A stretch of DNA of 64,000 bases from Terebella lapidaria. Lineage: Eukaryota; Annelida; Polychaeta; Terebellida; Terebellidae. Below the pieces are notes generated by a model. It ran no database searches. It saw nothing but the letters and a program-made list of their open reading frames with translations, and was not told the origin of the DNA. Made by a program: the position numbers and the translations under genes. Location: the NCBI GenBank assembly GCA_949152475.1, contig OX424568.1, positions 22,605,667-22,669,666 of the forward strand, read 5' to 3'. Below, piece after piece: positions 2,982 to 58,500 of this stretch. Each line of letters starts with the position of its first letter. Positions within the stretch are counted from its first letter, which is position 1.

Positions 2982-4973
2982 TTAAGGATGCTTATCAGTC
3001 AGGATCCATGCCTTGTCAGCAGAATTCTGGTAAGTTTTGTTTGGCTCATAACTCCGCAGTTTGGTAATGGATTGCTCTGAAAATTGTTGCGTAGGTTCTA
3101 TCCATGATTACAAGGCTTGTCCCATGGCCAGATGGAAGACCCAGTTGATAGTCATACAGATCCTGAACATTATACACCGCCAATCAAATGTAACTTACAT
3201 AGAAAACTGACAGCGTTTTGGGGGTACAGTTTCTTGACTATGGTTAGATTACATATCATAGAACAATAACCTACTGCGTGTTTTGGATTTACCTCAACAC
3301 TTGATGGGAGTTTGATGGTCAAAATAGCATGTTATATATCATCCGCATTGAAAATACACTGAGCAAAAGAATTTGATTGTCAATCGCATTAAAAACGTGC
3401 ATGTCCGTTGGCATTGTAAACTCAACCGCAAACTACATCAGGAATTCAGCGACTCTAATATTTTTTAAATGCAGTATAGAACCAAAATCACAACAACATC
3501 TCACTCCTGAGTACAACGTTCTCGACAGCTGAGCATTGACGGTATTTGCGATACGAATAATCCGCTGCTCTGTACTTAGCGCTTCACTGACCAGCGGCAC
3601 AAGACATTTTCATGTAATCACAATAGATATATACATTTGCACATCAATTTGACATGATTATCGATGGGATACATAAAATATAAGGGTAGGTTATTGATCA
3701 CGGACATGTGCACTAACTGCAGTTAAGAAACTACACCCTGTAATGCTTCGTGTTCGCAATGTAAGTTACATTTATTCAAGCAACATTCAACTCCATTTGT
3801 ATTGTAATTTATCAATGAAATCTTCAATCTCTTCTTCGCGCCAGCTTCATAGATGTATAAAGAATATATATTCCAAATTTCATGTAAGTTTGTTATGAAA
3901 CGGCCGAGATATTAACTAAAATTGCACGTGGTATGAAACCATTGAAATTACGGGGATCGTGCTCGATACCCAATATTAAGATTGAGTATCGAGCACGATC
4001 CACGTAATTTCAATGGTTTCATACCACGTGCAATTTTGGTTCATATCTCGGCCGTTTCATAACAAACTCACTTGAAATTTGGAATGTATATTCTGTATAC
4101 ATCTATGAAGCTGACAAGAAGAAGAGATTGAAGATTTCATTAATCAATTAGAATATAAATGGAGTTGAATGTTGCTTGAACAAATGTAACTTACGTTGCG
4201 TACACGAAGCATTACAGGGTGTAGTTTCTTAACTGCAGTTAGTGCACATGTCCGTGATCAATAACCTACCCTCAAATTTGAGGTATCCCATCGCTAATTA
4301 TGTCGAATTGATGTGCAAATGTGTATATCTATTGTGATCCCATGAAAATGTCTTGTGCCGCTGGTCAGTGAAGCGCTAAGTACAGATCAGCGGATTATTC
4401 GTATGGCGAATACCGTCAATGCTCAGCTGTCGAGAACGTTGTACTCAGGAGTGAGATGTTGTTGTGATTTTGGTTCTATACTGCATATAGAAAATATTAG
4501 AGTCGCTGAATTCCTGATGTAGTTTGCGGTTGAGCTTACAATGCCAACGGATATACACGTTATTAATGCGATTGACAATCAATTTCTTTTGCTCAGTGTA
4601 TTTTCAGTGCGGATGATATATAACATGCTATTTTGACCACCAAATTCCCATCAAATGTTGAGGTAAATCCAAAAAACACACAGTAGGTTATTGTTCTATG
4701 ATATGTAATCTAACCATAGTCAAGAAACTGTACCCTAAAATGCTGTCAGTTTTTTACGTAAGTTACATTTGATTGGCGGTGTATAACGTTCAGGATCTGT
4801 ATGAATATCAACTGGGTCTTCCATCTGGCCATTGGACAAGCCTTGTAATCATGGATAGAACCTACCCAACAATTTTCAGAGCAATCCATTACCAAACTGC
4901 GGAGTTATAAGCCAATAAAACTTACAAGAATTCTGCTGACAAGGCATGGATCCTGACTGATAAGCATCCTTAA
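2982..4973. mobile_element. 2-kb foldback element (zero-spacer palindrome)
   Basis: Two arms of about 996 bp are reverse complements of each other and meet at about 3977/3978, where 'gataccCAAT' faces 'ATTGagtatc'. The left arm starts 'ttaaggatgcttatcagtca' and the right arm ends with its inverse, '...gcatccttaa'. Landmarks pair along the whole length, for example the 'ggatccatgccttgtcagca' block near 3002 with its inverse near 4940, and the 'taacctactg' block near 3269 with its inverse near 4685. Flanks outside the terminal TTAA differ. Because TTAA is itself palindromic it could be a target-site duplication, as in piggyBac-like elements, but that is inference. There is no coding capacity. 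A transcript would fold into a long dsRNA. Confidence 0.85.
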
Positions 4974-11437: not shown

Positions 11438-12400
11438 TTAGCATAAAGAAAACTCTGATGGACAATCAGATCCATCCTCCAGGGCGCTCCAAGCTGGTAG
11501 GCGTCGGATTCGAGGGGGAAACAGTTGAGGCTGATTCCCTTGACGAGTAGGCGTGCAGGAACAGCTCCAGTGCCGGGGAGATGATCTGTCTGGAAGGATG
11601 CAGCTTGTACTCGACAGCATCCAGCAGCTCCTCCTCATTGTCTAACTTTAGCTGTTGGGTTAGGAACTGCAGCCTCCCTCTCATGAAGGCAGCCCAAAGC
11701 TTGCAGCTGGCCTGTGGATGGCGAACATTAAAGCCAGAGTAGACTCAGACTCTCCACAGGCGAAGCACGCACGATCTGGGTTGAGATACCAGGGAAGATG
11801 CTTCTTCCACAAGTGACGACGTAATTGAAGTTCCAGGACATTCCCACAGAACTGGCACTGGTGAGTGTTGGTTTCCCTTGCCACTGGTCCAGATTCTCAG
11901 GGGTCCTCTAATGACCTTTTCCTGGGGTTGGCGATGGCGACGGCAGCTTCAGCAATTTCAGCTGACGCAGCGGACGGAGAGTCGAGGACATTCCACGTCA
12001 ACCCACACCCTGTGATGGGGATCGTTGACGTTCTCCCCGCCGTTCATACCGTCGGGCTTCCTGAAGGTGGTTCCGCCCTTTCCCCGATGGTCGTCCCGGC
12101 GGTCATCCTGACGATTGTGGTCTATGGCGGTGCTGGGAGCTGGTGGTCTGGCTCCTCCGGTCACCGTGGTGGTGGACTTCCCGGTGAGATCGGTCCTGTC
12201 CACGACCGGACTGGCTGGTCCACAAGACTCTGGGGCGGACTAGTTGGTTGTGGGAGTGGGACCGATTTCGCCAGAAGGACGAGGAGGACCACCAGGGGAG
12301 CCCGACCACCAGCACCGCCATAGGAGCAGCTCCTGACACCGCCGACACCTCCATCACCCCACTCCTGATACCAAATGTCGTGCCAATAACTATCACTTGC
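11438..12400 (-). pseudogene. Zinc-finger protein relic, TatD-element type
   Basis: The minus-strand frames in order are a Pro/Arg/Asp-rich stretch (about 12203-11958), then a C2H2-like finger (11684-11884) with 'CQFCGNVLELQLRRHLWKKH', 'LPWYLNPDRACFAC' and 'GESESTLALMF'. A frameshift follows, then an amphipathic helical region (11684-11466) with 'LWAAFMRGRLQFLTQQLKL' and 'LLDAVEYKLHPSRQIISPAL'. From memory of molluscan TatD-domain proteins, an 'H-LPWY--P---C--C' finger followed by such a region forms the N-terminal half of proteins that end in a TatD nuclease. I therefore link it by inference to the TatD element at 17.0-19.3 kb, although it lies downstream of that element on the same strand and must be a separate copy. 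GC content is well above the local average. Multiple frameshifts and stops show it is dead. Confidence 0.5.
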
Positions 12401-17040: not shown

Positions 17041-17289
17041 TGTAGTGAGATTGTCTACCTAAAGTCGCCTATTCAAATTAAAGGTTACGGCTCCTGGCTT
17101 GTACAGTAGAAAAAGTCACTCGATGGGTGGTTGGGCAACGTCTGGCCATGGCCGGTTGTTGGGCTGCTCTCTTGCGTGGGCGCCGGCAGAGGTCGGCAGC
17201 ATACGGTGCTGTTGTGGTCACCCAGTTCACTATAGGTGACAGTAACTTAGCAGACAGGTCAATCGCCAGGTGGCAGCAGCGTGCTGTCA
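17041..17289 (-). repeat. 3' LTR of the TatD element (249 bp)
   Basis: This repeat aligns with 18994-19283 from 'tgtagtgagattgtc' to 'gcgtgctgtca'. Shared internal blocks include 'acggctcctggcttgtacag' (with 'acagctcctggcttgtacag' in the other copy), 'ggttgttgggctgctctctt' and 'agacaggtcaatcgccaggt'. It is about 40 bp shorter than its partner because it lacks the 'cagttttgcttgcaggtgtt' block, a deletion in one LTR. Confidence 0.8.
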
Positions 17290-17616
17290 CCACACTCCCC
17301 CACAACGAAAGGACGGGATCCCGATCTGACAATTTAACTGAATACAGTGCATTTAACATAATCCCGCATATCCGGGCATATTATATTTACATTGAAAACT
17401 ATGTACAATGCAGACACATTCACACAAGCCAGCAGACAGCAACTGTACCAGACAGCAACTGTCCACAGATGAAGATGGTAAAGGGTGCGGGTAGTGGGCT
17501 GTTCCAGACAGCGACTACCCACGGATGCAGGGATGAATGACATGAACGACATGAATGGGGGCGAGGGCTGTACCAGACAACGTTCAACCCACGATGACAA
17601 GAATGAAATGAGATGC

Positions 17617-18826
17617 TTACAGGTCAAAGCCGAAGAAGCTGGCAGCATTCAGCCTCGCGAGCTCACACACCGTCATCGGGCTCAGGTTCCGACAGCGGAA
17701 TATCGTGTCCACCAGGGGCCGCATGTCCCAAGGGGTGTGGATCCGGTAGGGTGCGTCCGTTTCCAACAGGGTCCTGTCCAATGGAATCTCCTCCAGCAAT
17801 CAGCGTTGCTCAGATCCGGCCGTGGCGGTCTCGATGAGGGCCTTGTCCAACCCAAAATAGGTTTGGGGGAATACGCTGGTCCACTGCTGCACATGATAGA
17901 GAGTGCCGCTGAAGCAGTGGAGGTAAACGGCGTGGTCCTTGGACAGGTGCTAGGACAGAATCCTGAGGGTGTCGGCATACACCTCCTCCGGGTTGCGGTC
18001 GAAGCGGGCGTGGACGACAATCGGTTTCCCGAGATGGTTCACGTGTGGAGCAATCTGTGCCAGGACCCCCAGTTGAAGTCTCCATTCGTCCTCGCCGGTC
18101 TTGTCGCCATAGTCAAGTCCCACTTCCCCGATGGCCAGACAGTAGGGCTGTGCTGTGAGGCACAGGAAGTCCGGGAACCACCGGTCGACTCTAGTCTGGC
18201 TGCTGGTCACGTGGCGGTGTAGGCCGATGTTCAGCACGACCTATTCCCGATGGCGGTACAGCGGGATGTCACGCCAATGCCGGTGAAAAGGCAGTGAACA
18301 CACCATGTGGCTGCAGCTGACGGTCCCGAGACGAGCGGACTGCGCCTTCACTTCCTCCAGGTTGTCGGCATCCTGGCAGTAGAGCCTCAGCTTGGCAAGG
18401 TGGCAGTGACTATCGACTGTCAGCAGGCGAGGAGCGATATGACTGATAGCGGTTCCGGCTCCTTTAGGCGGGGGCGGTCCTCCGGTCGAAGGTACACGAG
18501 CAGGATGCCCAGGATGTTCCAGTGGCACAAGATTACGACACGGCTGAGGGGCCTGAGATGGTAGCGGCCGTGGAACAGTGATCCGAAGAAGAAATCCAAC
18601 ATCCGCCATCCCAGGATGGTGACCATGCCGGGCTGGTGGAACTCCCGGGGGTTGTCTGGAAACCATTGACGCCACACCACAAGGTTGAGCAGGGTAGCAT
18701 GGAGTCGTTGGTGTGCCGGTCATTGTCTGGAGTGTGGCCCCGCAGGACATATCCTGTTCTGTTGCCCATGGTTTCGCAGGTCCAGCGTACCTGGAGACGC
18801 CCCTTGCAAATGGGGCAACATCATCG
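17617..18826 (-). pseudogene. TatD-type DNase relic with N-terminal zinc ribbon
   Basis: TatD enzymes are metal-dependent DNases with a TIM barrel. From the minus strand the relic reads a CPICKGRL zinc-ribbon start (18824), then after a frame change 'FFFGSLFHGRYHLRPLSRV' and 'ILCHWNILGILLVYLRPEDR'. After another shift near 18420 comes one continuous frame to 17617 holding all TatD signatures: DSHCHL (first metal pair, about 18400), AIGEVGLDY (bridging Glu, about 18130), PIVVHARF, HCFSG, LLETDAPYR and a terminal 'NAASFFGFDL' before TAA. This frame is broken only by TAG at 18241, TAG at 17950 and TGA at 17800. The TatD part is about 265 residues, full length for the family. The protein is predicted inactive only because of these breaks. 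It fills the interior of an LTR pair. Confidence 0.88.
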
Positions 18827-18993
18827 CCGAGCCCTCAGTAGCTTTCGGGCCTTAGGGGTGGGTTGCCGACAGGGTCTTTGATCTTGCGAATCAGGGTTGG
18901 AGGCAGGTCCGGGCGAACAAGCTTCCAACCTGACTATGAGGAGGAGGAGGTTGAGCCGGAGCCCGTACCTGCAAGATCTATCTCATCGCCAGT

Positions 18994-19283
18994 TGTAGTG
19001 AGATTGTCCACTCAAAGTCACCTATATTCACCTCAGGTTACAGCTCCTGGCTTGTACAGTAGAAGCAAGGTGCAGTCACTCGACAGGTGGTCAGTTTTGC
19101 TTGCAGGTGTTCTCCCTTCGGGGGTTGGGCAACGTCGGGCGATGGCTGGTTGTTGGGCTGCTCTCTTGCATGGGCGCCAGCAGAGGGCAGCAGCATATAT
19201 GGTGCTGTTGTGGTCGCCCAATTCACCGGGTGGCAGCACCGTAGCAGACAGGTCAATCGCCAGGTGGCAACAGCGTGCTGTCA
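18994..19283 (-). repeat. 5' LTR of the TatD element (290 bp)
   Basis: This is the upstream LTR on the coding (minus) strand and the partner of 17041-17289. Differences are scattered substitutions plus the insertion or deletion near 19085-19125. The LTRs have diverged visibly, which fits an old insertion and a decayed coding region. Confidence 0.8.
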
Positions 19284-19929
19284 CTGGTCTAGCAATTCCA
19301 TGTAATATCCATTATTAGTTACATGTGACGCAGTATCCAATTTCGCAATATCCATCGAATTGTGTGTGCTCATCCAAAAGGAACAAGAAATGTCCCTGCA
19401 AGTTATAATCACATCCACTGCATGTAAGCTATCCAATTTTTTAAATATCCATGAAATCATGTGTGATTATCCCACGTTATGTCTCCAAGTCATATCCACG
19501 ACTGGTTGCATTCACCTTTCACAGCAGAGGATGAGTATATATTGTATTGTGAACATTTGGATATAGTGCGAGTTTCACTTGAACAATACGATGTCGTCCC
19601 TTCAACTTATGTTTGTGCAATGAATGCAGCCGTTTCCCGTTCATCTCTCTTATATAGAACATTTGTGCTCACGTCTTCACACTCGTGAATCATGAGCTAT
19701 AGTGATTGTGTGTGCGTGTGGGAGGATATTTTTTGTGGGTGGGGGATTATTTTTGGGGCTGGTGGACTTTACATTAGTCAAAGCCCTCGTCAGGCTTCGC
19801 CCTCGCTTCCAATACCAATAAGTAATGGAGCGCTCCTCGTGCTTTAACTACTACGTAGTGCACATGCTCACCCTGGTGATCCTCTTTCATACTGCTGTGA
19901 CTGGGCTTTCTGCTCTGAGTACTCCATTA

Positions 19930-26332: not shown

Positions 26333-26575
26333 TAATTCTCGATCTATTACACATCAATACAATTAGATTTTGATGATACCAATAGCAAACGTGAAATAAA
26401 ACATTTTGGAATAGAAACAATTCCCGAATAAATAATTTATCCAAACGCACACTTCTGTCATCAGGGACAGACAGTGTGTGAAATGTTGTTGTCTCTACTG
26501 TAATTCTGATGGGATTAGTATACAACTGCTGATCAACATATGAAATTAATTTGAAAATCCGAAACAAACCCCACT
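26333..26575 (+). repeat. Dispersed repeat family R2, solitary copy
   Basis: This is a diverged single copy of the 365-bp unit found in tandem at 33861-34760. Shared blocks include 'caatacaattagattttgat', 'agggacagacagtgtgtg' and 'gattagtatacaactgc'. Same orientation as the other copies. Confidence 0.75.
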
Positions 26576-33860: not shown

Positions 33861-34760
33861 TATGTAAGTATCAATCTATTACCACCAATACAATCAGATT
33901 TTGATGAAGCCAAAAAGAAACGTAAAATACAACGTTTTGCAATAGAAACAAAGCCCGACCAAAGAGTTTATCCAAAGACACACTGGCGTCATCAGGGGCA
34001 GACAGTGTGTTAAATGTAGTTGTTTCTACTGTACACCTGATGGAATTAGTATACAACTGCCCAACAACCTATGAAAATAATTTAGAAATCCAAAACTAAC
34101 CCCATGGAATAGATACATGACAAGTACAATAGTACCCAATCACAAGCCAGAAGGCTACTGAGTTTATGGTATCCTCGGGGACAGATTTAACGTCCGCCAG
34201 CAGTGACACCGACTCAGTGGTATGAATGTAAGTATCAATCTATTACCACCAATACAATCAGATTTTGATGAAGCCAAAAAGAAACGTAAAATACAACGTT
34301 TTGCAATAGAAACAAAGCCCGACCAAATAGTTTATCCAAAGACACACTGGCGTCATCAGGGGCAGACAGTGTGTGGTTATTGTAGTTGTTTCTACTGTAC
34401 ACCTGATGGAATTAGTATACAACTGCCCAACAACCTATGAAAATAATTTAGAAATCCAAAACTAACCCCATGGAATAGATACATGACAAGTACAATAGTA
34501 TCAAATAACAAACCAGAAGGCTACTGAGTTTATGGTATCCTCGGGGACAGATTTAACGTCCGCCAGCAGTGACACCGACTCAGTGGTATGAATGTAAGTA
34601 TCAATCTATTACCACCAATACAATCAGATTTTGATGAAGCCAAAAAGAAACGTAAAATACAACGTTTTGCAATAGAAACAAAGCCCGGCCAAATAGTTTA
34701 TCCAAAGACACACTGGCGTCATCAGGGGCAGAGAGTGTGTTACATGTAGTTGATATATAT
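33861..34760 (+). repeat. 365-bp tandem array (R2), about 2.4 copies
   Basis: The phrase 'agtatcaatctattaccacc' begins units at about 33868, 34231 and 34598, giving periods of 364 and 366 bp. The first two units are nearly identical ('ggtatcctcggggacagatt', 'ccgccagcagtgacaccgac' in both). The third breaks off after 'gagagtgtgttacatgtag'. Solitary diverged copies sit at 26333-26575 and 62611-62845. Both strands stay open through part of the unit (plus 'DFDEAKKKRKIQRFAIETKP'), but the frame is not kept between all copies. Confidence 0.92.
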
Positions 34761-47519: not shown

Positions 47520-50500
47520 ATGCAGCTATAACTCTTTTTGTATTCACAAAAATAAACATCCGGTAAAAATTTTGCAATATAATGGGATATGATTTAGTTA
47601 TGTAAAAATGCGATGTGACGGATGTTGCGATGTAATGATATGGTATCAAGTAATCAGCGCCAGTAATTGCAATTCGTGACTCCACCGTGCAATCACATGA
47701 CTCCGCTTGATAAGCCGTTTATATCATTGCAAATCTGGTAATAAGTATCTAAATCATCCGTCTTCACTGCAAGTATATATTTGGTAAAGTAAGATTCTGT
47801 TTTTGCTACAGAGTTCCAGATCTTGACTGACATGTGATCCATGGCCATCTCCCGCGGTGAAATACCTACAGCGAAGCCAATCAATTCATGGATGTTCCCC
47901 ATAAAATACCCATGAGGATTCTACACAAGGTATCAAGTTCACAGCTGAACTTATCTGAACACGGGGTAATATGGGCTCAAAAAGAGACTTGCACAACACA
48001 CGTGGTATCAACCTTGAGAAGTCCGTAACATTTTTACGTTCGGTATGATGTTCGCTGTGTTTGGATAAGATGCAAAACACATTTCACCACTCATGTCAAT
48101 AAACCGAACATCACCATAATCATACAACAGAAAAAATATTTGGTTTACCCTCTTTAACCTCATTTCATTTCCGGGTGTAGAAGCAACGATATATTATTCG
48201 TAAATGAACCATTATATCGACTCGACGTCGAATAGTGCATGTTTTGAATAACAAATAATAGCTCATTGTTCTGCGAGTAAGTGCACACAATTCCATGCCC
48301 GACAATACCACACAGATTGATACAAATGTCGCGAGGTGAATGTCATTGTTCAGTCAAGGACATCACATTATGTTCGTTCTTTGAAATGTTGCATCATGAA
48401 TATATATGAATTGTACACACCAAAGAGCTTCCGCCAGAGCTTCGTCCGTAGAAATCAACAAGCGGGCCATAGCTGTATAAGGTTGCCAACTTTTTTAATT
48501 TTCAAGATAGAAGTCTGAAATTGGTTTGTTTTTGTTATGTGAACTTTCGCATAAGAGTTTCATTTTCGATAGTTCGTATAGCTAACCCGAATACGAATAG
48601 ACCTTCTGAAGTTTACTGTCCTGTCACCTATCACCGTTCTGAAACAGGTACACACACCCAGGACGCTTGATTGAAAAAAAACGAAAACCAAAGTTTATTT
48701 GGTATGGAAAGGCGATAGTATCGTTTCGACATGCTAAGTTCCTGTGATGTCTTTGATCGGGAAGGTCTGTCGCACTAACACCAGCTATGATTCTTGTGTA
48801 TGCTTCCATGGCATCCTGAAAGTCTTGTTATCAAAAGTCAGGACACATATATGCAGCCCGACAAGCACCATAAGCGCTTCACGCATCGATCGTTTATTTA
48901 CTATAAATCACTCATGAATTGAGTGAAGCGACCGATAAACCTTTACGAAAGTGATGCGTGGTTTATGATCATCAATATCTCGGAAGGCTTCGGTAGAGAA
49001 GTTCAGCTCTGAATGCAATGTGTGATGAACAAAGCAGATCATGAAAAGATAAAACTTTTTTAATATGTGCTCGTTGTGTTGAAGCTTCAGGTCGTTGGTT
49101 GCTGTTCGCTGTCATCCATTGTCAGTTTCCATGTAAAGATACCTACAGCTGAGCTAATCAATTCACGAAAGTTCCTCATAAAACACCCATGAAGATTCAA
49201 CACAAAGTATCTGGCTCGCAGCTAGGCTTACCTAACCAAGAACGCATACAGACGCCATGTAGGTACTAGATGAACTAAAATACCTAGGTAATTTACGCGG
49301 ACATAGGGCCATAATATGACTCAAGAGATTTGCACAACACGTGGTATCAACCTTGAGAACGCTGTGGAAGTTTCATGTTCCGTACGATGTTGCTTTGTGC
49401 TTGTATGAGGTCAAATCACATTTCATCACACGTTAATAGATCGAACATCACCATATTCATACAACTGAAAAATCTTTCGTTTCCCTTTTCATTGTTATTT
49501 TATTTCCAGATGTAAAAATGATATATTATTGATAAATAAACCATTTCATTGACTAGACGACAATGAGTGCATATTGATTAACAAAAAGTTGATTGTTATA
49601 CAAGTAAATACTTACATTCCATGCACGTGCACATCATACGTGTAACATACATAAAGGTATGTTGATAGAAATGTCGCCTGTTGAATGACGATATTCATTC
49701 AAAGACATCAAATCATGTTCGTTGTTCGAAGTGTTGCACAGATTATGTTTCTCGGTAGAAATCAACGATGAAGCCATAGCTGGCTTATGAATGAAACAGG
49801 TAAACATAGAACTTCACTTACCACTGTTCAATGATTCACTGTGTTCCAATAAGGTTATTGTCTCCCCGCAGGGGAGACTTCTTAAACGCTCTCTGAGATT
49901 CCCATGGGGGAAATACTCTTCGACTGGGGGAAAAACCCGGTTTCGAAATGAAAATACTTTGAACGTGTGTTCTACAGAGCTCAACGTAAATAATTCAGTT
50001 AATTAATATAATCTGACGAATATTTTCTTCGAAGGGTGCAATTTTTCTTCACTATCGCCAATTTACGTGAACATTAGCGTCTCGGCTGGATTTGAGAATA
50101 AATACATAACTACGGTGTGCATTCAGTCAACCGTGTATCACTTTTGTCCATACTGTCGAGTCATCGCTCACTTCTCACGTTTATTCTTTGTCAGTGCCAA
50201 AGTTTCCTTGTTTTGGAGCAGTAAAACTAGCACATTTGTTACGTTCCATATCCTGACTGCATCTTCACTTCTAACAATCACACGCATTTATTTTTCGCTG
50301 TCCCGCAAAGACCTAATTTTTCGCTCGCAAAGTGCGGAAGATTGATTACCATGGTATTTATCGTTGGCAAAGTGTAAAAGTCGGAATGGGTTCCGAGTTC
50401 AACACCACCGCCTTCAACATTGATATTTCAGTGCATATGAATATTCCAACGTTACTCAAATTTATTGGACACTTCTCATATGGCATCTATATTGTCGCAT

Positions 50501-52720
50501 ATTTGTACACTATTGACCAAAAACAACTTTACGAATATATTGAATTTTGGGCCAAATAGAAAACGGTGCTGAATTTTATGAACACCTTGTTATTTTTTGA
50601 TGGGCGTACTCGATCAGGGACTCAATTTTTATGGGTGTACTCGATCAGTGTTCATACGAACTATACGGTATCAATTGCTTTCACATCGGTATATTCGTCC
50701 GGCATGGACATCGTAGGCCTATATAATATGCGCACGGAAATAAATTGAAAACAGTTCTAGAAATGATCGCGCAATTGACTTCTGTCATCCGGGGAGATCT
50801 GGTGCTTTGCACCAGGTATGATTCTTGTAGTATTACTGAGAAACAAAGCTAGTAGGATATATCCAAACATAATCGGAAACGTAACATGTGACTATCTCAA
50901 CATTGCAGCATGGTCAAAATTAGACTATATTTGGTAGTATTCACGGGAAAGTAAATCACGAGTATGAATCGACACTTGATTTGAACAGAATAGTTTTAGA
51001 ATTTTAGCCAACTCCAAAATCACTAGCTACAAGCTTGGTGACCCAGGATACAAGCTAAACACATCATCAGTAACATAGCAGGCTGAGAAAGCTTCGAGGT
51101 GATTGATGAGGAAAGTCAGAAACCCTACATACAAATATTTATGTTTCTAACTTGACCCATAAGTCATATCTGTGCTCTTTGGAAGTCACAGATGATGGAT
51201 AAAGTTTGACCTAACACTAAGTTGATACAAAAGGAATACCCGCCATGAACATATCAAATTTTAATGACCTGGAACACGGAGATGAGTTGACATTAACTTG
51301 GTGTGTCATGATGAAGTTTGTATGTTTGACAAATTTGTTGTTGTTTTCAAAACAAACTCATTATCAATGAAGTTCGAATATCACAAAGGCCATGCTTTTT
51401 GGACAATGCAGACATATTCATTGAATTTCAGATTTGACAGATTGGTATCAACTAGTGATCCTTATTTGGGTAATGAGCTAGGCAGGCTTATTACTTAAGA
51501 TACTTATCATTTTGGCAAATTCATGTCAGTTCCACCAGTTCGATTTTTTCTCGATTGTATAGATATTTTTTTCTGAACTAAAAATAAGTGATATGATAAT
51601 AACTTGTGCCTTGTGCCATGATCAGAATGTGGCCTATATCTTATGATAATATTGAATTGAAAAGAAATCTGCTGGTGCCTATAATGCCCAATCTTTCACA
51701 CGGAAGCTTGTGTATGGATATATAAGTATTTCGCGTTGTTTTTCAAAATTTATCAAAATCTCAAAATTCATTTGAGTAGGCCTGCTAACACTGTCGAAAA
51801 ACCCCGTTGACATTCTTCATTCAGGGATGTAGACTCTATACGCCTGATATATGCAAAATATAGGGAATGCATACATACGAACACTAGTAACGTATATGAC
51901 CTAAACTGTCTGGGAATATGAAATAAAGGAGAGTCATTCTTTGCAAATTTGATTCAAATGATGGGAATTATGTCTACACGGGTAATGCAGCCACATGTGT
52001 AACTGGCGTTACAATTGTTTCTAGCTTGGCATTTACCTCCGTTTGGAATAACAACGAACTGTCTTTATAGAGAGTCAGTATCATCTTTTCATCTTGTTGT
52101 CAAGTATTTTGTTCCCATGTCATGATTTATGGATCCATCAGGCCTAACAGTTTTAACATTTTGGTACTGAAAGTAAGGACAATTATGGAATCCCATACGT
52201 GTCATGAAGCACAACTCACTTTACTCGTTTATCCACTCATGAACCACTCAGGAATGAAGTGTAGCGGCGGATAAACCTTTATGAACTTGATCCCAATGTA
52301 GGGGTATGATTTAATGGATGCAACTCAGCGATGAAGAATTCTGAAAAAAATGATATGGTATCAAGTAGGCCAGTAATTTCTGTTGGTGACTCACCACAAG
52401 ATCAAATGACGGGCGTCTAAGGAGCTCATCACGTCACTGCGAACTGTTAATCAATATCTAACCCGTCCTCTATATTACTACGAGTTTATTTTAGTCCGGT
52501 ATAATATTTGCTACATATTTCTCGACTGTCCCAGATCGTTGGTTGGCATTGTTTATGATCCATGGCCAGCGTCTAAGTTGGACTACTTACAGCGAAGCCA
52601 ATCAATTCATGAAAATTTCCCATAAAACACTCTTGAAAATTACACATAGAGTATCTGGTTCAGAGCTAAATTTATCTTAACAACCACGCATGCATGCTTA
52701 TATCATTGCAAATGTAGTAT
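47520..52720 (+). repeat. Segmental tandem duplication, copy A (about 5.2 kb)
   Basis: Copy A runs colinear with 52721-57900. Markers are 'ccatggccatctcccgcggt' (47841 and 53539), 'ccgaacatcaccataatcat' (48106 and 54289), 'cagcccgacaagcaccataa' (48853 and 55055), 'acaaatatttatgtttctaa' (51131 and 56296) and 'atggcatcctgaaagtctt' (48808 and 55011). No coding gene is seen. Within each copy, subunits of roughly 1.3 kb echo each other: 'gaagccaatcaattcatg' at 47874 and 52574 versus 'gagctaatcaattcacg' at 49153, each followed by 'cccatgargattc' and an 'aacacgtggtatcaacctt' block. The unit is therefore itself an old higher-order repeat. Confidence 0.88.
49859..49877. other. Short perfect hairpin
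   Basis: 'gtctcccc' faces 'ggggagac' around 'gca' (8-bp arms). It has no obvious partner in the other duplication copy. Confidence 0.6.
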
Positions 52721-52793
52721 TCACACACAAAAAAACATTCGCTAAAAATTTCGCAATATAATGGGATATGATGTAGTTCATGTAAAAATGTGA

Positions 52794-53327
52794 TAAGCTG
52801 CACTGGGTATAAATAAATTCTGTAAAAATAGTTCTATCCTTTGTGTCATGAAGGTTCATAAAGTTAAAACTACACTTGATGTCAGTTATCTTCAGTTATT
52901 AAGACAGGTGTTCAACTCGAGTTCTAGGACCAGATCATTTTATTGTCATCTTTTGAACATGCATTTGGGTCACAACTTAACTGAAAATAACCTTATTGGA
53001 CGTGCCAATCAGGTCTGTAGAAACCATAATGTGTCGTTTGCTAAATTTATATTTGATGATCAGTATGCAAATATTTGTCAACGGCGTTTGAAATCATTCC
53101 CGGTCAATGATGGGGTGGTGGACTCTATCCGACAATTACTGGTACATTATAACCCATATAACAGGTTTATACTGGAAACAATGACCATGCCATTTTGACC
53201 TACCTGTCACACCTGTGTGAACATTTTGTAATTGTTATTGTGATTTTTACGTGGTGTCTCATGTTATTTTATGCATGTTTTATTTTATGTACTCTCCTTT
53301 TGGAGGCTGAATAAATAAAATAAAATA
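52794..53327 (+). mobile_element. 5'-truncated LINE insertion
   Basis: Comparing copies A and B of the duplication shows an extra 530 bp here: A reads 'gtaaaaatgcgatgtgacgg', B breaks after 'gtaaaaatgtgat' and resumes at 'aacggatgttgc'. The insert holds an open frame (52848-53198) that ends 'DGVVDSIRQLLVHYNPYNRF' plus 10 residues before TGA, the style of a non-LTR reverse-transcriptase C-terminus. A 3' UTR of about 110 bp and a simple 'aataaataaaataaaata' tail follow. Truncation at the 5' side and an A-rich tail are classic LINE features. The catalytic domain is absent. Confidence 0.78.
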
Positions 53328-53824
53328 ACGGATGTTGCTATGTAATGATATGGTGATCAAGTGATCAGCGCCAGGAATTGCAATACGTGACTCCACCGCG
53401 CAATCATATGACTCTGCTTGATAAGCCGTTCATATGAAATCTGGTAATAAGTATCTAAATGATACGTCTTCACTGCAAGTATATATTTGGTAGAGTTTTT
53501 GCTACAGAGTTCCCGATCTTGGCTGACATGTGATCCATGGCCATCTCCCGCGGTGACATACCTACAGCGAAGCCAATCAATTCATGAAAGTTCCCCATAA
53601 AATACCCATGAGGATTCTACACAAGGTATCAAGTTCACAGCTGAACTTATCTGAACAGCTACACATGCGCCCTGGGGATACTAAACTGCTAAATGAACGA
53701 AACAAAGGAAACTTACACCGGGTATGGGCTCATAAAGAGACTTGCACAACACACGTGATATCAACCTTGAGAAGTCCATTACATTTTTACGTTCGGTACG
53801 ATGTTCGCTGTGTTTGGATAAGGC

Positions 53825-54245
53825 CACTCCTGTTTATTTTTTTGTTAGATGTCCTCTGGAAAATCGAAAGCTAGGAGGAAGGGCCAAAAAAAAACCTTTC
53901 AAATAAAAAACGATATACCGTGCATTGATTCTCTGAATGCAAACGATGTTTGGGTGGGGGACCTATATGTTTAAGCATCTGAAAATATATCATAGTTTCA
54001 TATCGAATCTTAGAAACTTATTTGTGGTAAGAATTGTTAATTTGAAATGTTAGTCTGTTCAAAACTCTGGATTCAAAGTTTTGCTGCGGGACCAATATGG
54101 GTAAGCTTTACAGAGATTGGCGGAATTTTGTGTGTCGAAATTCTTTTATTTCCAGAATATTACATATTTATCTTGTTTGTTTTTTTCTAAAAATTTCGCA
54201 AAAAGCTAGGCGTGCGGGGACGAGGAACAGAAATTTGAACAGGAA
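53825..54245. other. Insertion private to duplication copy B
   Basis: Copy A runs directly from 'gctgtgtttggataag' to 'atgcaaaacacatttcacc' (48054-48080). Copy B has about 420 bp between the same two phrases. The insert has a plus frame start near 54097 but no recognised domain and no clear terminal repeats. Confidence 0.65.
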
Positions 54246-57200
54246 TGGCATAAGATGCAAAACACATTTCACCACTCATGTCAATAAACCGAACATCACC
54301 ATAATCATACAACAGAAAAAAATCTTTGGTTTACCCTCTTTAACCTCATTTCATTTCCGGGTGTAGAAGCAACGATATATTATTTGTAAATGAACCATTA
54401 TATCGACTCGACGTCACATAGTGCATGTTTTGAATAACAAATAATAGCTAATTGTTCTGCGAGTCAGTGCACACAATTCCATGCCCGACAATACCACACA
54501 GATTGGTACAAATGTCGCGAGGTGAATGTCATTGTTCAGTCAAGGACATCACATTATGTTTGTTGTTTGAAATGTTGCATCGTGGATATATGTGAATTGT
54601 ACACTCCACAGAGCTTCGTCCGTAGAAATAAACAACCGAGCCATACCTCACTGATGAATAAGGTTGCCAACTTTTCAGTTTTCAAGATAGAAGTCTGAAA
54701 TTTGTTTGTTTTTGTTATGTGAACTTTCGAATAAGTTTCATTTTTCGATATTTCGTAAAGCTAAACCGATTGCGAATAGACCTTCTGAAGTTTACTGTCC
54801 TATCACCTATCACCGTTCTGAAACAGGTACACACACCCATGACGCTTGATTTGAAAAAAAAAACGAATACCAAAGTTCATTTGGTATGGAAAGGCGATAG
54901 TATCATTCCGACATGAGACCTACTTATTGCGTATTGCTAAGTTCCTGTGATGACTTTGATCGGGAAGGTCTGTCGCACTAACACCAGCTATGATTCTTGT
55001 GTATGCATCCATGGCATCCTGAAAGTCTTGTTATCAAAAGTCAGGACACATATGCAGCCCGACAAGCACCATAAGCGCTTCACGCATCGATCGTTTATTT
55101 ACTATAAATTACCCATAAATGAAGTGAAGCGACCGATAAACCTTTACGAAAGTGATGCATGGTATATGATCGTCAATATCTCGGAAATTAATGGTAGAGA
55201 AGTACAGCTCTGAGTGCACCGTTTGATCAACAAATATATCATGAAAAGTTAAAACTTTTTTTAAAAATTGTATTCGTTGTGTAGAAGCTTCAGGTCGTTG
55301 GTAGCTGTTCCCTCCTATCCACGGTCAGTTTCCACGTACAGATACCTACAGCCGAGCCAATCAATTCACGGAAGTTCCCCATAAAACACCCATGAAAATT
55401 CAACACAAAGTATCTGGTTCGCAGCTAGGCTTATCTAAACAAGAACGCAAAGAGACGCCATGTAGGTACTAGATGAACTAAAATAGGTAATTTACAGGGA
55501 TAGGGGGCCATAATATGACCGAGAGATGTGCACAACACATGTGGTATCAACCTTGAGAACGCTGTGAAAGTTTTACGTTGACTACGATGTTGCTTTGTGT
55601 TCGTTAAAGGTAAAAAACACATTTTATCACACGTTTGGATAGATCAAACATCACTATAATGATCATACAACTGAGAAATTCTCTAATCTTTTGTTTTTGC
55701 CTTTTCATTGTTATTTTATTTCCGGATGTAATACAATTATATAATATCAGTTATTTCATTGACTGGACGACACTGAGTGCATGTTTTGAATAACAAAAAG
55801 TTCATTGTCATACAAGTAAATACACACATTTCATGCACGCACACATAGTGTCGACTGTTGGGTGACAATTTCATTAACGGACATCAAATTAATATGTTCT
55901 TTGTTTGAAATCTTGCACGTAAGAGTTTTGTCTGTATAAATCAACAACGAAGCCATCGCTGGGTTATGAATAGGACGGCTGAGCCTTGAACTTCAGCTAC
56001 CACTGTACGATGGTTCACGGTGTTCCAAGAAGGTCACAGTTTCACTGGAAAACAAGGCTAGTTGGTTAAATCCAAACATCGCAGGATATATAATGTGCAA
56101 CCATCTCAACGTTGCAGCATGACGAAACTAGATTAGATTTATGAGTATCCTCGGGAAAGTAAATCACGAGTATGAATCAACGCTTCAAACATCACTAGAT
56201 GGTGACCCACGTTACAAGCTACACACAGCATCAGTAACATACCAGGCTGAGAGAACCTCGAGGTGATTGATGAGGAAAGTCAGAAACCCTACATACAAAT
56301 ATTTATGTTTCTAACTTGACCCATAAGTCATATCTGTGCTCTTTGGAAGTCACTGATGATGGATTACGTTTGAATGAAATTTTATTGACCTGGTACATAC
56401 GGAGATGAGTTGACATTAACTTGGTATGTCATGATGAAGTTTGTATGTTTGACAAATTTGTTGTTGTTTTCAAAACAGATTTTCTCAGTATAAATGAAGT
56501 TCGAATATCACATAGGCCATGCTTTTTCTACAATTCATTGAATTTCAGATTGGACAGAGTGGTATCAACTAGTGAACCTTATTTGGGTAACTAGCTAGAC
56601 AGGCCAAATACTAAGGATTACTTATCATATTGGCAAATTCATGTCGGTTCCACCAGTTCGGGTTTTTTTTTCGATTGCATTGATATCTGATCTTCTGATC
56701 TAAAAATAAGTTATACGAAAATAAGATTCCAACATATACCTCAAAAGCCGTTGTCTACATACAATGCAGAAATCAAGTTTCACTGTCTAGATATATCTGA
56801 CAACGGGATCTTTTCGCCTTGTGCCATGATCAGTTTGTGGCCTATATTCTACGATAATAATGAAATCGAAAGAAATCTGTTGGTGCCTAAAATGCCCGAT
56901 CTTTCACAACGGAGCTTGTGTATGAGTATATATTAAGTATTGCGTGTTGTATGTCTGAAAAATTAAATAGGCCTGCTTACTCTTTCGAAAAAAAAAATCA
57001 CAATGTACACTCAGTTGACATTCTTCATCCAGGGATGGATACGCCTGATATATGAAGATGATAGAGTATGCATACAAACAAATACCGGTCATATAGTATA
57101 CGACCTAAACTGTCTGGAAATATGAAAGAAAGGAGTATTTCTTTGCAAATTCAATTCAGTGATATGGATTAAGTCTTCACGAATGATGCAGTCACATGGG

Positions 57201-58500
57201 TGACTGACGTTACAATTGTTTCTAGCTTGGCTTTTACCTCCGTTTGGAATTACAACGAACTGTCAGAACTGTCAGAAAGTCAGTATCATTTTTTTCATCT
57301 TGTCAAGTATTTTGTTCCCATGTCACGATTTTTATGGATCCATCAGGTCCTGATAGTTTTAACATTTTGGTATTGAAAGTAAGGACACTTATGGAACCCC
57401 ATACGTATCATTACGCACAACTCACTTCTCTCGTTTATCTAGTCATGAACCACCCAGGAATGAAGTGAAGCGGCGGATAAACCTTTATGAACTTGATTCT
57501 AATGTAGGGATATGATTTAATGGATGTAGCTCTGGGATGAAGGATTCTGTAATTAAATGATATGGTATCAAGTAGTCAGACCAGTAATTTCTTTTGGTGA
57601 CTTACCACGTGATCAAATGACGGACGCCTAATGAGCTCATCACGTCACTGCAAAGTTATATCTAATTCGTCCTTTTTACTACTACGAGTTTGTTTTGGTT
57701 CGGTATATTTTTTGCAACATATTTCTCGACTGCCCCCATATCATTGAATGGCATTGGCATAAAACACCCATGAACATTCCACATGGAGTATCTGATTCAG
57801 AGCTAAATTTATCTGAACAGCCACGCATGCATACACCCTGAGGGCACTAAATGAACTAGCATGTGATCTGAACCCATAAAATATACTGACATGTGCACCA
57901 CACGCGTGATATCAACCTTGAGAACTTATGTTTATATGATTTGCAAAACACATTTCTCTACTCGTGTCGATAAACCAAACATCACCCTAATCATACAGTT
58001 GTGAACATTTTTGTCTTTTGTTTCCCATTTTATTGTCATTTTATTTCCGGGTGTAAATGCAATGATATATGAACGGTTTCATTGACTCGATGTCACTGAG
58101 TGCATGTTTTCAATGACAAAAAAGTAAATTGTTTTACAATTCAATACATACATTCCATATGATGTCGCGATGTGAAGGTCAGTGTTCATTCAATGACATC
58201 AAATTATTTTCATTTGTTGAACTGTTGCATCGTGAGTATCTCTGTATTGTACACCCAAGAATTTTATCCTTAAAAATCAAAAACAGAGCCATAGCTGGCT
58301 CACGAATAGAACAACGAAACCTCGATGGCTCACGGCCGTGTTCGGATTAAGTTACAGTAATCCTGGAAAACAAGGCGAGTATGTTATATCCAAAAATCAT
58401 GGGAAATATAACATGGAGCTATCCCAACATTGCATCATGATAAAAATTGATTAGATTCACACGCATTCGGGAGAAATTCTTAAATGCACGATCTTAATGA

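Follow-up and report, generated by a model that had tools for sequence, protein, structure and literature searches.

A degenerate LTR retrotransposon in Terebella lapidaria and its full-size relatives with a TatD nuclease gene downstream of pol

The stretch of DNA analyzed here (the window) comprises 64,000 nucleotides of the annelid Terebella lapidaria (assembly GCA_949152475.1, contig OX424568.1, positions 22,605,667 to 22,669,666 of the forward strand). It holds, on the minus strand, a broken TatD nuclease gene enclosed by two direct repeats that lie around 1.7 kb of sequence, and an earlier note, made from the sequence alone, had read the repeats as long terminal repeats (LTRs) of an element with TatD as its sole cargo. 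We found that the repeats are real LTRs: several of their matches elsewhere in the genome are paired, and the 3′ copy retains both ends on the minus strand (TGTG..ACTACA), the start of the 5′ copy being decayed. The TatD gene is the element's own, forming part of a third open reading frame (ORF3). What the window holds is a dead derivative of an LTR retrotransposon, reduced by internal deletion and rearranged. Its features, with percentages referring to a full-size copy on C8 described below (PBS, primer-binding site; PPT, polypurine tract), are the following:

18994-19288, minus strand: 5′ LTR of the degenerate element, from repeat search, LTR alignment and genome matches; its first four bases are ACCA where relatives have TGTG
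18974-18991, minus strand: decayed PBS, starting 2 bases past the 5′ LTR, with an 11/18 match to host tRNA-Ser(GCT)
18918-18972, plus strand: inverted ORF3 start (FQPDYEEE...), adjoining the PBS end; 89% to the ORF3 start of the C8 copy, on the opposite strand
18786-18914, minus strand: ORF3 remnant, N-terminal part to the first zinc-finger cysteine pair; 86% to the C8 copy
18695-18786, minus strand: ORF3 remnant from the second zinc-finger cysteine pair onward; 93% to the C8 copy
18441-18694, minus strand: ORF3 remnant, helical domain linking zinc finger and TatD, in a frame that differs from that of TatD
17620-18429, minus strand: ORF3 remnant, TatD domain with three in-frame stops (PF01026, E 9e-32); protein 91% identical to the C8 ORF3
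17306-17619, minus strand: 3′ untranslated stretch from ORF3 to the PPT, inside the 92.7% match with the C8 copy
17295-17305, minus strand: PPT, TTGTGGGGGAG, abutting the 3′ LTR; a similar tract lies at the 3′ LTR of the C4, C8, C11 and C16 copies
17041-17294, minus strand: 3′ LTR, shortened by internal gaps

When the two window LTRs were aligned, we obtained 214 matches, 35 mismatches (35/249 aligned bases) and 45 gap columns, corresponding to a Kimura two-parameter distance of 0.158. The TatD domain is full-length, as had been noted, spanning residues 5-267 of the 270 in the Pfam model once the stops are masked, and the five metal-binding motifs named in the earlier note (DSHCHL, GEVGLD, HAR, HCFSG and LETDAP) are all present. 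Besides the three stops in TatD and the frame shift upstream of it, ORF3 has suffered two deletions, one of about 60 bp (the H....HLPW stretch) after the 18786-18914 remnant and one of about 92 bp after the 18695-18786 remnant. The stops, the frame shift and the deletions do not figure in the earlier note. A search of the 64-kb window at E 1e-4 detected nothing of this family's gag, protease or pol, in agreement with the description of the copy as lacking gag and pol. A plus-strand tract near 18940, GAGGAGGAGG, was considered as a PPT and rejected, as it is the inverted start of the ORF3 coding sequence. Chance can be excluded for the arrangement as a whole, because the 5′ LTR has 19 matches in the genome (71-89% identity across the matched part) and over 1405 bp the interior shares 92.7% identity with the copy on C8.

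The genome searched was the Terebella lapidaria assembly of 761.6 Mb in 438 contigs; as to the host, a COI fragment can be read with the invertebrate code. Several of the 19 LTR matches are paired 9-16 kb apart, and the pairs on C4, C8, C11 and C16 delimit full-size elements (subfamily A) that share LTR, PBS and PPT with the window copy, the kind of autonomous partner that the earlier note had envisaged. Read in pieces, the four elements have the order LTR, PBS, gag, protease, reverse transcriptase (RT)-RNaseH-integrase, ORF3, PPT, LTR. Pfam recognized helix-hairpin-helix (HHH) and CCHC motifs in gag, gag-asp protease, RVT_1, RNaseH, Integrase_H2C2 and rve, as well as TatD in ORF3; gag was named by its position and its CCHC knuckle, the HHH motif lying at its start, and no capsid domain was recognized in it. 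ORF3 is a separate frame of about 500 amino acids in which a zinc finger is followed by a helical domain and then by TatD (E 8e-38), and in the C8 copy it lies in its own frame about 80 nt past the pol stop. It is open in some copies and broken in others. TatD as sole cargo is thus a secondary state, since the full-size partners encode it as the third ORF after pol.

The four LTR pairs are nearly identical (292/292, 291/292, 294/295 and 254/254) and have TG..CA ends, whereas those of subfamily C start with TG and end with TA. One 5′ LTR lacks its first bases and the C11 copy lacks part of pol; in the C16 element (L017), stretches of gag are repeated, by tandem duplication or an assembly fault. 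Target-site duplications (TSDs) of 4 bp flank three of the four copies (C4 CTTG, C16 ACAA and C8 GTAC). For the C8 insert there is also a paralogous empty site, an insert-free member of a repeat family near 34.03 kb of the window in which GTAC is present once. The earlier note had allowed that the repeats might flank sequences other than TatD. This holds for five single-LTR places (L018-L022), with no ORF3 or pol in the flanks examined, and for a short LTR pair at C5:6.44 Mb around gag remains, but the full-size copies carry TatD.

Elements with ORF3 are spread widely across the genome. A search with the metagenomic protein P0241 scored at least 86 ORF3 matches (86 of 345 candidates, including the window copy and two pieces of one C11 locus), of which 65 are stop-free in the matched stretch. 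They fall into at least ten subfamilies, with 26-57% identity between ten representatives; subfamily F (L054), which runs off the end of the stretch examined, was left out of the identity tables and the tree. Among the 30 best ORF3 loci, 27 are immediately preceded by the end of pol in the same orientation; the exceptions are the window copy, L046 and L030, in which pol is 2.4 kb away. The six representatives of remote subfamilies all show RNaseH and integrase ahead of an ORF3 with this layout (one running off the end of the stretch), so that pol directly precedes ORF3 in 33 of the 36 loci examined in total. Gag and pol were read between the LTRs for subfamily A, and the end of pol elsewhere. 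Among the matches listed, 58 of 82 pol places (87 matches minus five short second pieces) have ORF3 no more than 3 kb away, and pol accompanies 59 of the 86 ORF3 matches; these lists are incomplete, and a partner missing from them is no proof of absence.

In subfamilies A, B and C, ORF3 precedes the PPT and LTR, while in subfamily D no PPT was recognized adjoining the LTR. The subfamily C LTRs (295 nt) have 26 genome matches, among them nine pairs that span ORF3 with outer spans of 10.8-11.5 kb and one short pair of 2.19 kb; exact 4-bp TSDs were found in seven of the nine long copies. ORF3 copies are intron-free and open, and between chromosomes their identity reaches 99-100%. The PBS of subfamily A fits host tRNA-Ser(GCT), with 13 contiguous bases in the C8 and C11 copies, and that of subfamily C is complementary to tRNA-Leu(AAG), with 22 contiguous bases at C12:33.3 Mb and only 13/18 at C17:4.29 Mb. 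The interval C1:34133668-34203753 contains 84 exact sites of a tRNA 3′ end in tandem, spaced by about 580 bp, and the single array unit tested is tRNA-Leu(AAG) according to ARAGORN. Together, the target duplications and the host tRNA primer matches demonstrate mobility.

The top database relative of the window TatD, far ahead of others, is P0002 (E 5e-49), and searches with P0002 and an alignment of relatives recovered P0122, P0123, P0241 and others with a shared layout of zinc finger (CxxC..H....HLPW..P..CCWxC), helical stretch and TatD. Residues D236, H238, H240, E332, H370, H401 and D455 are invariant in 14/14 proteins, including all six positions (H, H, E, H, H, D) that we take to be the metal ligands of TatD, and the zinc-finger cysteines and histidines are nearly so. 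The metal-site motifs retained in the window are also conserved in relatives with open frames. The TatD region can be aligned to E. coli YcfH (1yix), and a structure model of P0241 (predicted local distance difference test score, pLDDT, 84) matches TatD nucleases, TATDN1 and TATDN3 among them. All 50 PDB rows listed by the fold search are TatD or other amidohydrolase folds, the sole viral match at E <0.001 is a TatD-fold protein, and no relative of the N-terminal half of ORF3 was among the fold-search matches listed. An envelope protein was not recognized in the third ORF, TatD_DNase being the sole Pfam family above cut-off, with no membrane-segment prediction made.

ORF3 appears constrained at the protein level: pN/pS pooled over 36 pairs from nine subfamily C copies (L043 left out) is 0.11, single-pair dN/dS values are 0.05 in subfamily B and 0.13 in subfamily C, and dN/dS between A and A2 is 0.23 at a dS of about 2. 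Distances of ORF3 and pol co-diverge over ten lineages (Mantel r 0.84, p 0.0001, 9,999 permutations). In a tree of 50 rows, built without TATDN1 and TATDN3, a single clade (99/97), placed on the eukaryotic side, unites the ten ORF3 TatDs with P0241, P0122, P0002, P0123 and P0124, with P0241 nesting with subfamily A and P0122, P0002 and P0123 with subfamily C. This clade is apart from 11 of the 12 rows labelled bacterial; the twelfth, P0003, stands among eukaryotic rows and its label is probably wrong. A row named TATDN2 (P0153) belongs to a neighbouring group. Outside the ORF3 clade, three proteins (P0004, P0247 and P0249) join CCHC knuckles to TatD in what is perhaps a separate fusion, mobile or domesticated. 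A prokaryotic or viral source of ORF3 was considered and rejected. The best 80 of 561 relatives from genome contigs are 23-36% identical and none begins before ORF3 residue 187, and thus none has the zinc finger; viral contigs gave zero matches with P0002, and two distant TatDs in another search.

Two of the five pol places at 39-40% identity were read (L141 and L142) and belong to related LTR elements in which pol is followed by a serine-rich third ORF of about 650 amino acids with a zinc-finger-like start. This ORF and the TatD-type ORF3s have the motif F.PDY.EE in common. Homology of the zinc fingers was considered and was not significant, as 1 of 400 shuffled sequences outscored both. The third ORF may be older than TatD, or TatD may have been lost in the L141/L142 clade.

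Taking these observations together, the window element is very probably a copy of a Ty3-type LTR retrotransposon whose clade encodes a zinc finger-helical-TatD ORF3 in the place of env, a degree of confidence that applies to the identity of the element and not to the role of the enzyme. The full-size elements present the Metaviridae domain order of protease, RT, RNaseH and integrase. One could instead suppose that duplicates of a host TatD gene lie by chance between unrelated LTR copies, given that TatD genes are normal in animals and that the tree places ORF3 on the eukaryotic side. We see practically no chance of this, since ORF3 stands directly behind pol across subfamilies and ahead of the PPT and LTR in A, B and C, the copies are intron-free, open and near-identical between chromosomes, and the TSD-flanked LTR pairs and the empty site refute it; gene order, TSDs and copy structure rule out TatD as chance cargo or host gene. 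Several observations nevertheless weigh against our identification or parts of it. Among the matches listed, 24 of 82 pol places lack ORF3 (17 at 50% identity or more, two at 43-46% and five at 39-40%), and Pfam found no TatD in L141 and L142, which means that not every member of the wider clade has TatD. No matching TSD was found for the C11 copy or for two of the nine subfamily C copies; the window copy, which is old and rearranged, has unmatched flanks, no recognizable target duplication and a decayed PBS. Gag gave a weak, below-cut-off match to DUF1759 (E 0.03), a domain more usual in BEL elements, and the Ty3 placement is by domain order, not by an RT tree. Some single-pair dN/dS values are weak (A 0.55, D 0.75, one C pair 0.49, all with few differences), and three remote pairs are saturated. 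Finally, an origin of ORF3 from TATDN2 is a guess, drawn from a tree without TATDN1 and TATDN3.

With regard to origin and function, one retrotransposon lineage would have captured an animal TatD gene, perhaps a TATDN2-like one, and retained it vertically for a long time. Passages of PMC12709183 describe TATDN2 as an R-loop RNA nuclease in animals and medaka tatdn2 as required in germ cells. The ORF3 nuclease might, tentatively, trim single-stranded or RNA:DNA-hybrid ends in the replication intermediates of the element, or rid germ cells of such hybrids, while the zinc finger and the helical domain would do the binding. Alternatively, ORF3 may be a genuine part of the element with a structural or regulatory role, such as chromatin targeting via the zinc finger, its TatD fold being kept for binding only. 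The near-invariance of the zinc-finger cysteines and histidines would fit such a role, as would the TatD-less third ORF of L141 and L142 with its zinc-finger-like start and F.PDY.EE motif; binding alone, however, would hardly demand that all six ligand positions stay invariant in 14/14 proteins despite 26-57% identity between subfamilies, and we consider it distinctly improbable. Extending the nuclease reading, and with a similar reserve, we can imagine that an old and diverse animal LTR clade captured TatD once, fused a zinc-finger module to it in the env position, and depends on TatD catalysis either for its own RNA:DNA intermediates or for disarming a germline nucleic-acid defence. The metagenomic proteins nested inside the ORF3 clade (P0241, P0122, P0002 and P0123) would then probably come from other hosts, and some TATDN2-like animal genes would be parts of such elements.

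The earlier note had also raised the question of other copies with the LTR-TatD-LTR order. One was found, L046 (C8:7200797-7202986), a 2.19-kb member of subfamily C that itself lacks the ORF3 start. Its TSD (ATGG) and its LTRs, with 1 difference in 300, indicate a recent insertion. At its junction, 17 nt of tRNA-Leu complement are followed directly by ORF3 near nt 186, about 185 nt of the ORF3 start being lost, and the window junction, now decayed, lies about 20 bases past the LTR at the PBS end. Since one TatD-only copy is from subfamily A and the other from subfamily C, with no second example in either, we take them to be deletion derivatives and not a propagated class; an amplified gag-pol-less class of the TRIM or LARD kind was not what we found, with one TatD-only copy in each subfamily. 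In reverse transcription, the tRNA's last 18 bases are copied at the end of the plus-strand strong-stop DNA. If this DNA (the LTR plus the tRNA-copied PBS) paired within ORF3 and not with the PBS complement, gag-pol would be lost and the tRNA-copied bases kept; in the window copy, the template switch would have been accompanied by an inversion. We think that the short forms probably arose by such misplaced plus-strand transfer, which L046 fits and which the window junction fits in decayed form, and the fact that two junctions, one of them degenerate, suggest it counts against the proposal. An origin from spliced RNA was rejected for L046, as its junction is inside ORF3.

Ordinary chromosomal deletion after insertion, and not during reverse transcription, is an unlikely but not negligible source of the short copies: the window copy has additional internal deletions and C5:6.44 Mb is another shortened copy, yet L046 is young and both TatD-only copies have their junction at the PBS end, L046 after 17 nt of tRNA complement and the window copy about 20 nt past the LTR. 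Far less credible is the idea that LTR-TatD-LTR copies form a non-autonomous class of their own, which autonomous elements multiply in trans and in which TatD rides along as cargo, be it selfish or useful. Two such copies do exist and L046 is recent; against this, they come from different subfamilies with one copy each among 19 and 26 LTR matches, neither encodes a whole ORF3 (L046 lacks about 185 nt of its start and the window copy is broken), and what survives in the short LTR pair at C5:6.44 Mb is remains of gag, as expected if deletions strike at large.

The surroundings of the window copy are those of animal nuclear DNA, with 35-53% GC per 2-kb step and two rhodopsin-type G protein-coupled receptor exons at 44.5-46.4 kb. 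One further feature belongs to the ORF3 protein family:

11450-11977, minus strand: second, separate relic of the ORF3 protein family, comprising the zinc finger and some of the helical domain (E 8e-9 with P0123)

By profile, its zinc finger scores E 2e-9 and its helical part E 7e-4, and no TatD or LTR was recognized there. The C8 ORF3 does not match it at E 1e-4, and it is therefore a relic of another lineage. Elsewhere in the window, we observed a very large, spacer-free inverted repeat at 2982-4973 (703-bp arms, 94%, with additional outer arms), an interspersed repeat family with a 366-bp tandem unit at 33862-34752 and also at 26352 and 62625, and numerous direct repeats spaced by about 5-6 kb at 47800-58250, which look like a local segmental duplication. 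The C8 subfamily A element is inserted within a member of the 366-bp-unit family.

LTR retrotransposons are viewed as gag plus pol, with env in some. We found no report of TatD in an LTR element in the open-licence literature, repeat databases lying outside this search. The conserved TatD ORF indicates that a retroelement lineage can add and retain a further nucleic-acid enzyme, and it makes the benefit of a TatD nuclease to a retroelement testable, with the TatD-less relatives that have a third ORF as a natural contrast. It is also a warning that genes annotated as TATDN2-like in animals may belong to transposons. In the giant squid, PMC6962438 lists TATDN2 among the non-Hox genes within the Hox cluster, where a pogo-type gene is its neighbour; this is perhaps the same kind of element gene, unrecognized. 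The short copies, for their part, may record misplaced plus-strand transfer.

Compared with known systems, these elements agree with the Ty3 type (gypsy, Metaviridae) in their LTRs, tRNA-primed PBS, CCHC gag, protease-RT-RNaseH-integrase order, PPT and short TSD, the placement being by domains, but differ in that the third ORF is a zinc-finger TatD protein and that gag starts with HHH and has no recognized capsid domain. Errantiviruses and endogenous retroviruses have env as third ORF. Like them, the present elements have a separate third ORF behind pol, read in a frame of its own, but no envelope protein was recognized here, and both Pfam and the structure model give TatD. The window copy and L046 resemble TRIM and LARD, which are non-autonomous LTR derivatives, in keeping two LTRs, PBS and PPT without gag-pol, but both still contain coding sequence of the element, and each is a single product of deletion, in contrast to an amplified family. 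With respect to animal TATDN2, the TatD of ORF3 falls on the same eukaryotic side of the family, mollusc TATDN2 included and apart from the bacterial ones; unlike it, ORF3 forms a clade of its own, is joined to a zinc finger and a helical domain, and is multicopy and mobile.
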